From Anaeromyxobacter dehalogenans 2CP-1 (GTDB taxonomy: Bacteria; Myxococcota; Myxococcia; Myxococcales; Anaeromyxobacteraceae), in the NCBI RefSeq assembly GCF_000022145.1, contig NC_011891.1:3516501-3580500 (forward strand): a stretch of DNA of 64,000 bases. The letters are read 5' to 3'. Position 1 is the stretch's first letter. Each line of letters starts with the position of its first letter. This document shows positions 5,942 through 20,200 of the stretch, piece after piece. A model generated the notes under the pieces. That model did not search any database, was not told the DNA's origin, and saw only the letters and a list, made by a program, of their open reading frames with translations. Position numbers and translations under genes: made by a program.

Positions 5942-6022
5942 AGAGCCCGCCGCACCGGCCGGGGCGCCGCGACCGCGGCGTCCGGCCGCGCGGGGGCGGG
6001 CAGCGCGGCGTCCAGCCGCGCC

Positions 6023-6113
6023 GGGCTGGCGGCGCGGCTCCTGCCGCGCGGGGCTGGCGGCGCGGCTCCTGCCGCGCGGGGCTGGCGGCGCGGCTCCTGC
6101 CGCGCGGGGCTGG
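6023..6113. repeat. Three tandem copies of a 28-bp G+C repeat
   Basis: Three identical 28-bp units start at 6023, 6051 and 6079, followed by a partial fourth (GGGCTGG). Each begins GGGCTGGCGG and ends GCCGCGCG. They fill most of the 205-bp gap between the TPR gene and the ChaN-like gene. No coding function is apparent; slippage-generated intergenic repeats are the simplest explanation. Confidence 0.85.
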
Positions 6114-12963: not shown

Positions 12964-13632
12964 GTGCCCCACGCCGCGCGGTTCCTCGAGAACCCGTTCC
13001 AGCTCCACGTCACGTTCGACCTCGCCGCGACCTACCTGTTCGCGGTGACGGGCGCGCTGGCCGCGATCGCCAAGCGGTACGACCTGGTGGGCGTGCTGGT
13101 GCTCGCGTTCGTCACCGGCCTCGGCGGCGCGCTGCTCCGCGACGGCCTGTTCCTGCAGTTCGGCCCGCCCGCCGTCGTCACCGACGGCCGCTACCTGGTG
13201 GCGGTGGCGCTCGGGGCGGCCACCGGCATCTTCTTCGGCCGGCGGCTGCACCGGTTCCGCATCCCGTTCCTGCTCGCGGACGCCGTGGCGCTCGGGACGT
13301 ACGGGGTGGTCGGCGCGCAGAAGTCGCTCGCGGTGGGGCTGCCGGTGGTCACCGCGCTGATGGTCGGCGCGGTGAACGCGGTCGGCGGCGGCATGCTGCG
13401 CGACGTCCTGGTGCGGGACGTGCCGCTCGTCTTCAAGCCGGGCGAGTTCTACGCGCTCGCCGCCATGGCGGGAGAGCTGGTGTTCCTCGGCCTCACCCGC
13501 GGCGCCGGGCTGCCCGGCACGCTCTCGGCGCTGATCGCGATCGCCGCCGCGTTCGCGGTCCGGATCCTGTCGGTGTGGCTGGGCTGGCGGACGGAGGCGC
13601 TGTCGGGCGAGGACGGGACAGGCGAGCGCTAG
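12964..13632 (+). CDS. TRIC/UPF0126-type membrane channel protein
   Basis: A 222-residue protein with about seven hydrophobic helices in two homologous halves. Each half has the family hallmark: GLGGALLRDG in the first and VGGGMLRDVL in the second. Prokaryotic TRIC-family proteins are trimeric cation (K+) channels; others of this UPF0126 family have been linked to glycine transport. GTG start with AAAGGAGG immediately upstream. No operon partner. Confidence 0.82.
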   Translation: MPHAARFLENPFQLHVTFDLAATYLFAVTGALAAIAKRYDLVGVLVLAFVTGLGGALLRDGLFLQFGPPAVVTDGRYLVAVALGAATGIFFGRRLHRFRIPFLLADAVALGTYGVVGAQKSLAVGLPVVTALMVGAVNAVGGGMLRDVLVRDVPLVFKPGEFYALAAMAGELVFLGLTRGAGLPGTLSALIAIAAAFAVRILSVWLGWRTEALSGEDGTGER

Positions 13633-17184: not shown

Positions 17185-18642
17185 GTGATCGAGGATCGTC
17201 CGCACCGCACCGCTGCCGAGCCGCTGACGCCCGGCGCGCTGCCCCGGCGCCTGCGCGGCTGGTTCGGCATGTCCGAGGAGCCGCCCCTCCGCTCGGCGCG
17301 GCCGGCCCGCCTCGACACCGTCCGCCGGAGCTGGGCCGCCGCCTACTGGCAGGCGCGCGTCTCGGTCCGCGCCGGCGTCCCGCTCGATGACTACCTGCGC
17401 TCGCGCCTGGCGCGCTACTCCGCGGCGCTGCCGGTGCCGCGCGCGCAGCTCCCGCTCTCGGTCGAGGTCGAGGACGGCGAGATCCTGGTCGGCGAGGCCG
17501 CCCCGGAGCGCCGCCCGGCGGAGCTCCCGGCCGACGGCGACGCCTGGCTCGCCGCGCTGGTGCACGTGGAGGGACCGGCCGTGCGCCAGGAGGTGGCGGA
17601 GCTGGAGATCCGCCTCGCCTCGATCGAGGTGGAGGCGGACGGCGCGCGCCGGCGCGCCGAGGAGCTGTCGCGCCGCCTCGCCGCCGACGTGGCGGCGGGC
17701 ACGGTGTGTGCGCCGCCGCAGGTGGAGGCCACGGCCGAGCAGCTCGGTCGGCCGCCGGTGTCGAGCGCCGCGCCGCAGGCCGGCCTGCGCGCCTTCGCCA
17801 CCGCGTCGATCGCCGCCGAGACCTGGCAGATCGCGCTGCCGCTGCTGCGCGCGGCCGGGGTGGACCCGGCCACGCTGGGCGTCTCCGCGGCGCGCAACCC
17901 CGCGGAGACCACGTTCGCGTTCGCGTTCGCGCTGGGCATCGCCGGCGCGCTCCTGGCGCTGGCCTGGGCGGGCTTCGACGCGGCCTCCGTGCTCGCCTCG
18001 GGCGAGCAGGACCTGGCGCGCCGCCGCTACTCCGCGGCGGGCGCCGCCTGCGCCGCGCTGCTGTCGATCGGGCTCGCCGCCGCGGTGGCCGCGCTGCCCG
18101 GCGGGATCGGCGGGCTGCCGCCCGCCGTGTCCACGCTGCTGCTCGCCTCGGTGCCGGTGGGCGCCGCGCTGGCGCTCCGCGCCGCGCGCTCGCTGGCCAC
18201 CCGCCGCGGGCTCGAGCTCGCCGACGCGCTGGAGTGGGATCGCACGCGGGCCCGGTCGCTCGCGGATCGCGCGCGCCGCCTCGAGGAGCTGGACTGGGCG
18301 GAGGCCGAGGAGCACGACCTCGAGCGCGAGCGCGAGGCCTCCCGGCGCCGCCTGCGGACCATCGGCGCGCGCGCCGCCGCCGCCGATCGGCTCGCGGCGG
18401 AGCCGCTCCGCCGCCGCCGCGCCGAGCTGTCGCGGGTGGCGCAGAGCCTGGTGAGCGCGCTCGAGCTCGACCGCTACGAGTTCCTGCGGCAGGCCGCCGC
18501 CCGCGGCGCCACCGACCTCATCGCCCCGCGGCGCCGCCGCGGCGGCGGGGACGGCCGCCGCGCCGAGCCGCCGCGCTCCGAGGCCGCCCCGTCGGCGCCG
18601 GTCGCGGTGCCCGTGCCCGAGGGCGGCCGGCTGGCGTCCTGA
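17185..18642 (+). CDS. Unrecognised membrane/coiled-coil protein, paralog A
   Basis: A 485-residue protein of unknown function. In order: a basic N-terminal region; a conserved DDYLRSRLARY segment (~70-80); a helical Glu/Arg-rich coiled coil (~130-170); the motif EATAEQLGRPPV at 181-192; three to four hydrophobic segments (~235-345); a long Arg/Glu-rich coiled coil with LEWDRTRARSL; and ALELDRYEFLR near the end with a disordered tail. A second gene at 23412 encodes the same architecture and motifs. GTG start with GGAGG at 17171-17175. A 129-bp tandem array follows directly. Confidence 0.7.
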   Translation: MIEDRPHRTAAEPLTPGALPRRLRGWFGMSEEPPLRSARPARLDTVRRSWAAAYWQARVSVRAGVPLDDYLRSRLARYSAALPVPRAQLPLSVEVEDGEILVGEAAPERRPAELPADGDAWLAALVHVEGPAVRQEVAELEIRLASIEVEADGARRRAEELSRRLAADVAAGTVCAPPQVEATAEQLGRPPVSSAAPQAGLRAFATASIAAETWQIALPLLRAAGVDPATLGVSAARNPAETTFAFAFALGIAGALLALAWAGFDAASVLASGEQDLARRRYSAAGAACAALLSIGLAAAVAALPGGIGGLPPAVSTLLLASVPVGAALALRAARSLATRRGLELADALEWDRTRARSLADRARRLEELDWAEAEEHDLEREREASRRRLRTIGARAAAADRLAAEPLRRRRAELSRVAQSLVSALELDRYEFLRQAAARGATDLIAPRRRRGGGDGRRAEPPRSEAAPSAPVAVPVPEGGRLAS

Positions 18643-18650
18643 TGCTGCGC

Positions 18651-19316
18651 GGGGCGGGGCGCAGCCCCGTTCGCGCGGCGCAGCCGCGCCCGCGGGGACC
18701 TCGCGCGCACCCGCGCCAGCGGGCGCGCGAGGTCACGGGACCCGCACAGCAAGTGGGGCCCCGCGGAGCTCCGCTCCGCGGGGCGGGGCGCAGCCCCGTT
18801 CGCGCGGCGCAGCCGCGCCCGCGGGGACCTCGCGCGCACCCGCGCCAGCGGGCGCGCGAGGTCACGGGACCCGCGCAGCAGGTGGGGCCCCGCGGAGCTC
18901 CGCTCCGCGGGGCGGGGCGCAGCCCCGTTCGCGCGGCGCAGCCGCGCCCGCGGGGACCTCGCGCGCACCCGCGCCAGCGGGCGCGCGAGGTCACGGGACC
19001 CGCACAGCAAGTGGGGCCCCGCGGAGCTCCGCTCCGCGGGGCGGAGCGCAGCCCCGTTCGCGCGGCGCAGCCGCGCCCGCGGGGACCTCGCGCGCACCCG
19101 CGCCAGCGGGCGCGCGAGGTCACGGGACCCGCGCAGCAGGTGGGGCCCCGCGGAGCTCCGCTCCGCGGGGCGGGGCGCAGCCCCGTTCGCGCGGCGCAGC
19201 CGCGCCCGCGGGGACCTCGCGCGCACCCGCGCCAGCGGGCGCGCGAGGTCACGGGACCCGCGCAGCAGGTGGGGCCCCGCGGAGCTCCGCTCCGCGGGGC
19301 GGGGCGCAGCCCCGTT
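18651..19316. repeat. Five-copy 129-bp tandem repeat array with internal hairpins
   Basis: Units begin at 18651, 18780, 18909, 19038 and 19167 (exact 129-bp spacing), with a partial sixth from 19296. Units differ mainly at a cAcagcaA/cGcagcaG position pair, giving the order A-B-A-B-B; unit 4 also has one G-to-A change near its start. Each unit contains several perfect dyads: GGGGC-GCA-GCCCC, CGCGGC-GCA-GCCGCG, a 12-bp stem GACCTCGCGCGC/GCGCGCGAGGTC, and a 10-bp stem CCCCGCGGAG/CTCCGCGGGG. Because 129 is divisible by three, long open frames exist on both strands. The array fills the gap between paralog A and rsmE. Confidence 0.93.
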
Positions 19317-19357
19317 CCGGTTGACAGGCGCGCAACGCTCGGCCACCGTCCGCGCGC

Positions 19358-20101
19358 GTGAACCTCCTGCTGCTCGAGCCCGGAGAGCTCTCCGCCGGCG
19401 GCACCGCCCGGCTGGCCGGTCGGCGCGCGCGGCACGTGCTGGAGGTGCTGCGCGCCGGCGCCGGCGACCGGATCCAGGCCGGGGTGATCGGCGGACGCAT
19501 GGGCGAGGCGGAGATCCTCACCGCGACGCCGGACGAGGTGGTGATCGCGGCCTCGCCCGATCGGGAGCCGCCGCCGCCCTCGCCGGTGGCGCTCCTGCTC
19601 GCCCTGCCCCGCCCGAAGATCCTGCGCAAGGTGCTGCAGGCCGCCGCCTCCATGGGGGTCAAGCGGCTGGTGCTCCTCGGCAGCTACCGCGTGGAGAAGA
19701 GCTACTTCGCGTCGCCGCTGCTCGCGCCCGACGCGATCCGCGAGCAGCTGCTGCTCGGCCTGGAGCAGGGGCGCGACACGATCCTGCCCGAGGTGGAGCT
19801 GCACCGGTTCTTCAAACCGTTCGTGGAGGACCTGCTCGACGCGCGCTTCCCTGAGCGCGACCGGCTCCTCGCGCACCCGGCCGGCGCGGCGCCGCTGGAG
19901 GCGCTCGCGCCGGCCGGCCCGCGGGCCGCGCTCGCGATCGGCCCGGAGGGCGGGTGGACGCCGTACGAGGCCGCGGCGCTGCGCGACCGCGGGTTCGCCC
20001 CGTTCACGCTGGGTCCGCGGGTGCTGCGCGTCGACGCGGCGGTGCCGTACGCCGTCGGCCAGGCCGAGCTCTGGCTGCGCGGCGCGGGCCGGCCGGCCTG
20101 A
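19358..20101 (+). CDS. rsmE: 16S rRNA (uracil-1498-N3)-methyltransferase RsmE
   Basis: A 247-residue SPOUT methyltransferase. Diagnostic segments are ALPRPKILRKVLQ and GVKRLVLLGSYRVEKSYF in the middle, AIGPEGGWTPYE (residues ~193-204), and LGPRVLRVDAAVPYA at the C-terminal knot. Length matches RsmE, which methylates U1498 of 16S rRNA in the assembled small subunit. The GTG at 19358 was chosen since RsmE proteins start with a short strand followed by the RARHVLEVLR segment. It lies directly behind the 129-bp repeat array, so its promoter must be in or next to the repeats. Confidence 0.92.
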   Translation: MNLLLLEPGELSAGGTARLAGRRARHVLEVLRAGAGDRIQAGVIGGRMGEAEILTATPDEVVIAASPDREPPPPSPVALLLALPRPKILRKVLQAAASMGVKRLVLLGSYRVEKSYFASPLLAPDAIREQLLLGLEQGRDTILPEVELHRFFKPFVEDLLDARFPERDRLLAHPAGAAPLEALAPAGPRAALAIGPEGGWTPYEAAALRDRGFAPFTLGPRVLRVDAAVPYAVGQAELWLRGAGRPA

Positions 20102-20200
20102 GCCGTGCCTGGCCAGTCGCGAGGGGCCGCAGCCCCGTAGGATCGCCCGGACGGTCGCGTCAGCCGCGACACGCACCGATCGCGGCTCACGCACTGCCGT

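Follow-up and report, generated by a model that had tools for sequence, protein, structure and literature searches.

The window analysed here is a 64,000-nucleotide stretch of the Anaeromyxobacter dehalogenans 2CP-1 chromosome, and we focused on a tandem array on its forward strand at 18644..19317, for which TRF gave a period of 129 bp, 5.2 copies and 98% matches. It is preceded by the stop codon of an unnamed gene of 485 aa (17185..18642, + strand) and followed by rsmE, which codes for the 16S rRNA (uracil-1498-N3)-methyltransferase (19358..20101, + strand; Pfam PF04452, and NF008700 over its cut-off). Genes were called with a home-made codon-usage caller trained on the sequence itself, and Pfam and NCBIfam searches with the upstream gene returned no match. 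Comparison of the units placed five of them, all on the + strand, at 18651..18779, 18780..18908, 18909..19037, 19038..19166 and 19167..19295, in agreement with the exact 129-bp spacing described in a first-pass annotation of this DNA. A partial sixth copy, which is one more P4 hairpin (see below), closes the array at 19296..19317 (+). The units differ from one another at two or three bases only: units 1 and 3 (type A) show no base difference, units 2 and 5 (type B) carry changes at unit positions 96 and 102 relative to type A, and unit 4 is type B with a further change at unit position 8. The A-B-A-B-B order reported earlier is correct, the two diagnostic bases at positions 96 and 102 being its basis. 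Between the P4 end of the array and rsmE, a TTGACA at 19321..19326 (+) is kept in three relatives and is a possible -35 box. A consensus scan around the array found no sigma-70 promoter pair, and no intrinsic terminator, a G+C-rich stem followed by a T run, was found at 18400-19500.

In the given orientation, the element reads H1, P1/P2, an unpaired ACGGG bulge, CCCCGCGCAGCAGG, P3, P4 and GT. H1 is either GCGCGGC-GCA-GCCGCGC or an AGGGG-type hairpin with one further hairpin ahead of it, P1/P2 is CGCGGGG followed by a long hairpin, and P4 is GGGGC-GCA-GCCCC followed by GT. Within the array, the first of six P4 hairpins is at 18656..18668, and unit 1 continues on the + strand with H1 (18673..18689), the long P2 hairpin (18697..18734), the ACGGG bulge (18735..18739), a conserved linker CCCGCgCAGCArG that pairs with P1 (18740..18755) and P3 with its 11-bp arms (18758..18784). 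The bulge, which is invariant or nearly so in the alignment, and the GCAGCAGG linker are the conserved unpaired motifs of the element. The perfect dyads noted earlier in each unit are real: the arms measure 12 bp in P2 (GACCTCGCGCGC/GCGCGCGAGGTC) and 11 bp in P3, and the H1 and P4 hairpins each have a GCA loop. When the fold of a unit was compared with dinucleotide-preserving shuffles, z was -6.1 on the + strand and -3.9 on the - strand, and none of 200 shuffles folded as well.

Both P2 and P3 are backed by covariation as well as by the fold. Across copies, core positions are nearly invariant and stems vary pairwise. Among 20 copies, double (compensatory) changes were found in 8 of 32 modelled pairs, and among 82 distinct copies in 25 of 32, with 261 double-changed cells vs 57 in shuffles vs 11-41 in slid controls; because the 82-copy alignment was fitted to a covariance model and the copies are related, these numbers lean towards structure. 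The arms of P2 come in many paired versions, such as GACCTCGCGCG, GACCGCTCGCG, GAACCTGCGCG and GAACGGTCGCG, each with its complement, and a second composite type has a different P2 and a similar bulge and holds the linker-P3-P4 module in common with the first type. In copies from A. oryzisoli, the 5' half is a linker-hairpin-hairpin module resembling the 3' half, so the fuller form of the element looks, on the aligned copies, like module-core-module. These comparisons demonstrate that pairing in the predicted hairpins persists through sequence change and that copies swap whole hairpins. The earlier suggestion of a structural element is thus borne out by covariation for the pairing, and any function of that structure is putative. 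G-U pairs slightly exceed A-C on the given strand (8 to 3), an excess too weak to pick an RNA strand.

The unit is not confined to the array. With one unit as the blastn query, 52 matches were found in the 2CP-1 genome at about 45 separate places, and the family there comprises about 50 intergenic loci, including a second array at 1,955,539-1,956,025. The previously proposed mobile palindromic repeat family fits these dispersed loci and their presence or absence between relatives. A covariance model of the element, R1, was used for genome searches and gave 18-59 matches in each well-assembled Anaeromyxobacter genome. Across 117 genomes of the order, R1 matched 12 genomes of four genera, all of the same family; the three genera other than Anaeromyxobacter have few copies each, and R1 matched nothing in the further families of the sample. 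An exact-core scan of one genome per species (84,980 species) returned Anaeromyxobacter and a single further hit in Planctomycetota, which was dismissed as a chance match on finding no similarity beyond the core. Exact-core searches of viral contigs found no element, nor did a search of plasmids. In Rfam, the window and five other copy-bearing loci gave no match above the gathering score, and the array itself gave chance-level scores only. A motif pair that has been ascribed to CRISPR in A. dehalogenans 2CP-1 (PMC5217627) does not match the element. Along the 2CP-1 chromosome, 24 of 50 dispersed elements fall between about 3.86 and 5.03 Mb, within 23% of its length.

We examined how the dispersed elements lie relative to genes, and none of 49 was found inside a called gene. 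The stop codon of the P4-side gene faces the element at 40 of the 49 loci, where about 45% is expected from the interval types (p-value = 2e-7). In these 40 cases, the distance from the P4 end to the stop codon has a median of 3.5 nt and is within 15 nt in 32, the element edges being hand-set and accurate to within a few bases. On the H1 side, a stop codon faces the element at 27 of 49 loci, and there is no such preference. Intervals between genes of the same direction show the polarity 18 to 6 (p-value = 0.02), and the six include the focal array, which is arranged like the minority: its upstream neighbour ends ahead of it, and its P4 end faces the region upstream of rsmE, a gene in the same direction. 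P4-side genes often end in Phe and stop (10 of 40 vs 7 of 242 in the background). A link to outer-membrane proteins, suggested by these endings, was rejected because Pfam shows mostly unrelated enzymes, and the Phe-stop excess therefore seems to reflect a preference for certain DNA where gene and element meet.

When read along the P4-side gene, a typical junction is ..TTC TGA TCTGAC GGGG or ..TGAC GGGG. Stop codons of type TAG are depleted on this side (3 of 32 genes vs 97 of 242 in the background, p-value = 4e-4), and the H1 side resembles the background with 9 of 17. A malic-enzyme gene ends in TGA in four genomes where the site is filled and in TAG in five where it is empty, with the terminal Phe kept (p-value = 0.008 for Fisher test), although the genomes are related and the independent events fewer than these counts. 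At two further sites, empty alleles end in TAG and filled ones in TGA or TAA, and at two others base changes create TCTGAC. The TAG depletion and the comparison of filled with empty sites together indicate that the P4 terminus, TCTGAC, often supplies the stop, and we conclude that in many cases it takes the place of the gene's own stop codon. According to Di Nocera et al. (PMC3733652), GTAG REPs too are a frequent source of stop codons, so stop supply is a habit common to both and is exercised here with a different tag.

At the array locus itself, the site is empty in one relative (G006), holds one copy in another (G001) and holds five in 2CP-1. Searching the whole genome and sister genomes for the unit, as had been advised, showed it to be neither unique nor constant in number, and the 0/1/5 series supports the recent expansion inferred earlier. 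The single copy in G001 has a P4-like hairpin at both ends, 133 bp apart, a spacing close to the 129-bp period, and this pair probably served as the starting material for tandem growth. On the simplest account, the five-copy array would have arisen by unequal recombination or slippage involving hairpins of this kind on either side of a single copy. Duplication of a two-unit block, as first suggested, is possible, but its basis is two bases, and recombination or slippage between flanking P4 hairpins is the clearer account. Arrays with other periods occur in G001, G005 and G006, so tandem growth recurs.

We compared 2CP-1 with G001 at further sites. Six sampled sites are filled in 2CP-1 and empty or nearly so in G001, and others are common to both. 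Where both have a copy, most of P2 is gone from G001 at 310,138, a different yet still paired P2 stands at 4,839,044 and P3 is replaced by a CCCTTCGG..CTCAGGG hairpin at 13,055; the hairpins therefore behave as exchangeable modules. As far as their strongly diverged flanks allow, the six filled/empty pairs show no consistent target-site duplication and no clean insertion boundary. Since differences at several empty sites extend over tens of bases, some apparent insertions may be replacements. The sister genomes compared are different species rather than strains of one, so any present-day mobility is putative.

In behaviour, the family resembles REP/BIME repeats, which are dispersed extragenic palindromes near gene 3' ends with a mosaic grouping of hairpins (PMC3733652); as in the present case, with no element in a gene and 40 of 49 facing a stop, they lie downstream of genes, and the terminal tag of GTAG REPs often gives the stop codon. 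The details differ. In the GTAG superfamily, GTAG stands at the foot of the palindrome, whereas the element here has AC, often TCTGAC in the sense of the adjacent gene, and 89 distinct P4 flanks conserve G and then T/C after the hairpin rather than GTAG. In the CGTC superfamily, CGTC lies 5' of an 8-9 bp stem beginning with A-T pairs; here, CGTC-like letters come after the P4 hairpin, not before it, and the P4 stem is G-C only. REP/BIME palindromes are simple, 20-40 bp, often in inverted pairs and in more than 100 copies, in contrast to the element here, which measures about 110-190 bp, strings together several different hairpins in a single orientation, has conserved unpaired motifs and exists in fewer than 100 copies. 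Finally, a cognate RAYT gene flanked by repeats accompanies REPs, unlike the situation here. With the tests of tag, unit form and RAYT linkage failing, we regard the family as REP/BIME-like in behaviour and not a member of the GTAG or CGTC superfamily. It is apparently undescribed in the open literature that we searched, and its novelty is provisional since subscription papers lay outside that search.

There are also more distant parallels. In E. coli, REPs that lie 15 nt or less from a stop codon are reported to lower translation (PMC12306157, citing earlier work); the strong hairpin right after the stop is alike here and its position compatible with translational control, but the E. coli sequences are unrelated and a role of this kind is putative here. 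REPINs and MITEs (PMC3116915) are likewise short, non-autonomous, dispersed repeats forming hairpins, but no target-site duplication, terminal inverted repeat or mobilising enzyme was established for our family. Hairpin-forming elements of sponge mitochondria are intergenic repeats that invade compact genomes (PMC2800124), but these are organellar and unrelated in sequence. The family here differs in another respect also: its copies sit at stops with a set polarity, and stop-codon anchoring is not known for the repetitive elements in sponge mitochondria.

Taken together, our preferred reading, with a probability of roughly 0.68, is that the array is a local tandem amplification of a lineage-specific, composite palindromic intergenic family that is modular, lies at gene 3' ends and behaves as mobile DNA. 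The comparisons demonstrate a modular chain of predicted hairpins, H1-[P1/P2 with ACGGG bulge]-linker-P3-P4, intergenic and present or absent at orthologous sites, whose P4 end abuts the 3' end of a called gene and whose terminus (TCTGAC when read along that gene) in many cases gives the stop. The family is probably non-autonomous mobile DNA and acts, if at all, as 3'-end hairpins. The elements would spread perhaps via a single-stranded hairpin form. On the host side, hairpins just past stops would act as 3'-UTR structures, with candidate roles in termination, mRNA 3'-end protection and stop-codon-proximal translational control, all of which are reported for REPs. Our best inference for function is mobile hairpin DNA that is tolerated at gene ends and may have 3'-UTR effects.

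We think it unlikely that the element is primarily a host cis-acting RNA (a terminator, mRNA stabiliser or regulator) selected at 3' ends, with dispersal secondary. Such an RNA would explain the 3'-end polarity, the placement within 15 nt of stops, the strong covariation with invariant unpaired motifs and the slight G-U excess, but orthologous genes in close relatives go without the element, the P4-side genes are functionally unrelated, and neither a T-tract terminator (18400-19500) nor an Rfam family was found. In addition, the strand abutting the stop would be the reverse complement, opposite to the one that the weak G-U bias points to. It seems quite improbable that the element is a classical REP/BIME mobilised by a RAYT (Y1 tyrosine) transposase encoded in the same genome. 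The extragenic hairpins near stops, the tag that supplies stops and the presence of Y1_Tnp genes in the genus would suit such a system, as would junctions that follow a CT dinucleotide in several filled sites, where E. coli TnpA-REP is also reported to cleave (PMC8266576). However, no element was seen within about 1.5 kb of the genus's 28 Y1_Tnp loci (the best R1 match had an E of 0.18, not significant), so linkage to RAYT was rejected; the tag is TGAC/AC rather than GTAG, units run head to tail and not as inverted pairs, and a different repeat (GGTGCCGGAGTCAGTC) lies beside one RAYT-like gene. Mobilisation by a reverse transcriptase was also set aside, with no RVT_1 match in the 2CP-1 genome.

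It is very improbable that an inert local repeat or a misassembly accounts for the array. GC-rich tandem repeats misassemble easily, and in the draft relative G006 a contig ends 282 bp ahead of rsmE, but the empty site of G006 is covered from the stop codon to the start of rsmE, and the units of the array are not all identical. The 2CP-1 genome (G000) is a single finished-size contig of 5,029,329 bp, and similar arrays occur elsewhere in it and in other assemblies (L022, L125, L126, L127), which together make an artefact unlikely. A bolder reading that we put forward tentatively and think unlikely is that the family is a third kind of tagged palindromic repeat, (TC)TGAC-tagged and with no known transposase, which would insert at stops and put its own TGA in place of the native one, with templated copying of whole hairpins between copies preserving pairing alongside selection. 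If the preferred reading is right, it brings to the myxobacteria a REP-like family that is apparently undescribed and stands out by its unusual terminal tag, its clear polarity and its replacement of stop codons, and the interest of the repeat lies in its frequent supply of a stop codon to the neighbouring gene and in pairing kept despite sequence change. The filled/empty allele pairs and the 0/1/5-copy alleles in sister species would make insertion, amplification and 3'-end effects directly testable.

Other repeats were observed near these loci. At L059 (1190-1345), a RAYT-like Y1_Tnp gene of 225 aa is immediately preceded by several copies of another repeat (GACCTGGTGCCGGAGTCAGTCGG), possibly the REP family of that gene. 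The window holds a second tandem array at 5974-6113 (28-bp unit CGCGGCTCCTGCCGCGCGGGGCTGGCGG, 4.9 copies, 92% matches), and just 3' of rsmE, at 20124-20137, there is a solitary P4-like hairpin GGGCCGCAGCCCCG followed by GTAGGATCG, with the remainder of the element absent. A CCCTTCG-(ACA/GCA)-AGCTCAGGG palindrome replaces P3 at L042/L147, L048, L052, L208 and L218 and is also solitary nearby (for example at L139), in at least two species. At L139 (G001 near 4.784 Mb), which is the site of the 2CP-1 element at 4,804,213, an HNH-endonuclease-like frame is found instead, adjoined by repeated CGCTCGCCCTGAGC..GTCGAAGGGCG palindromes.
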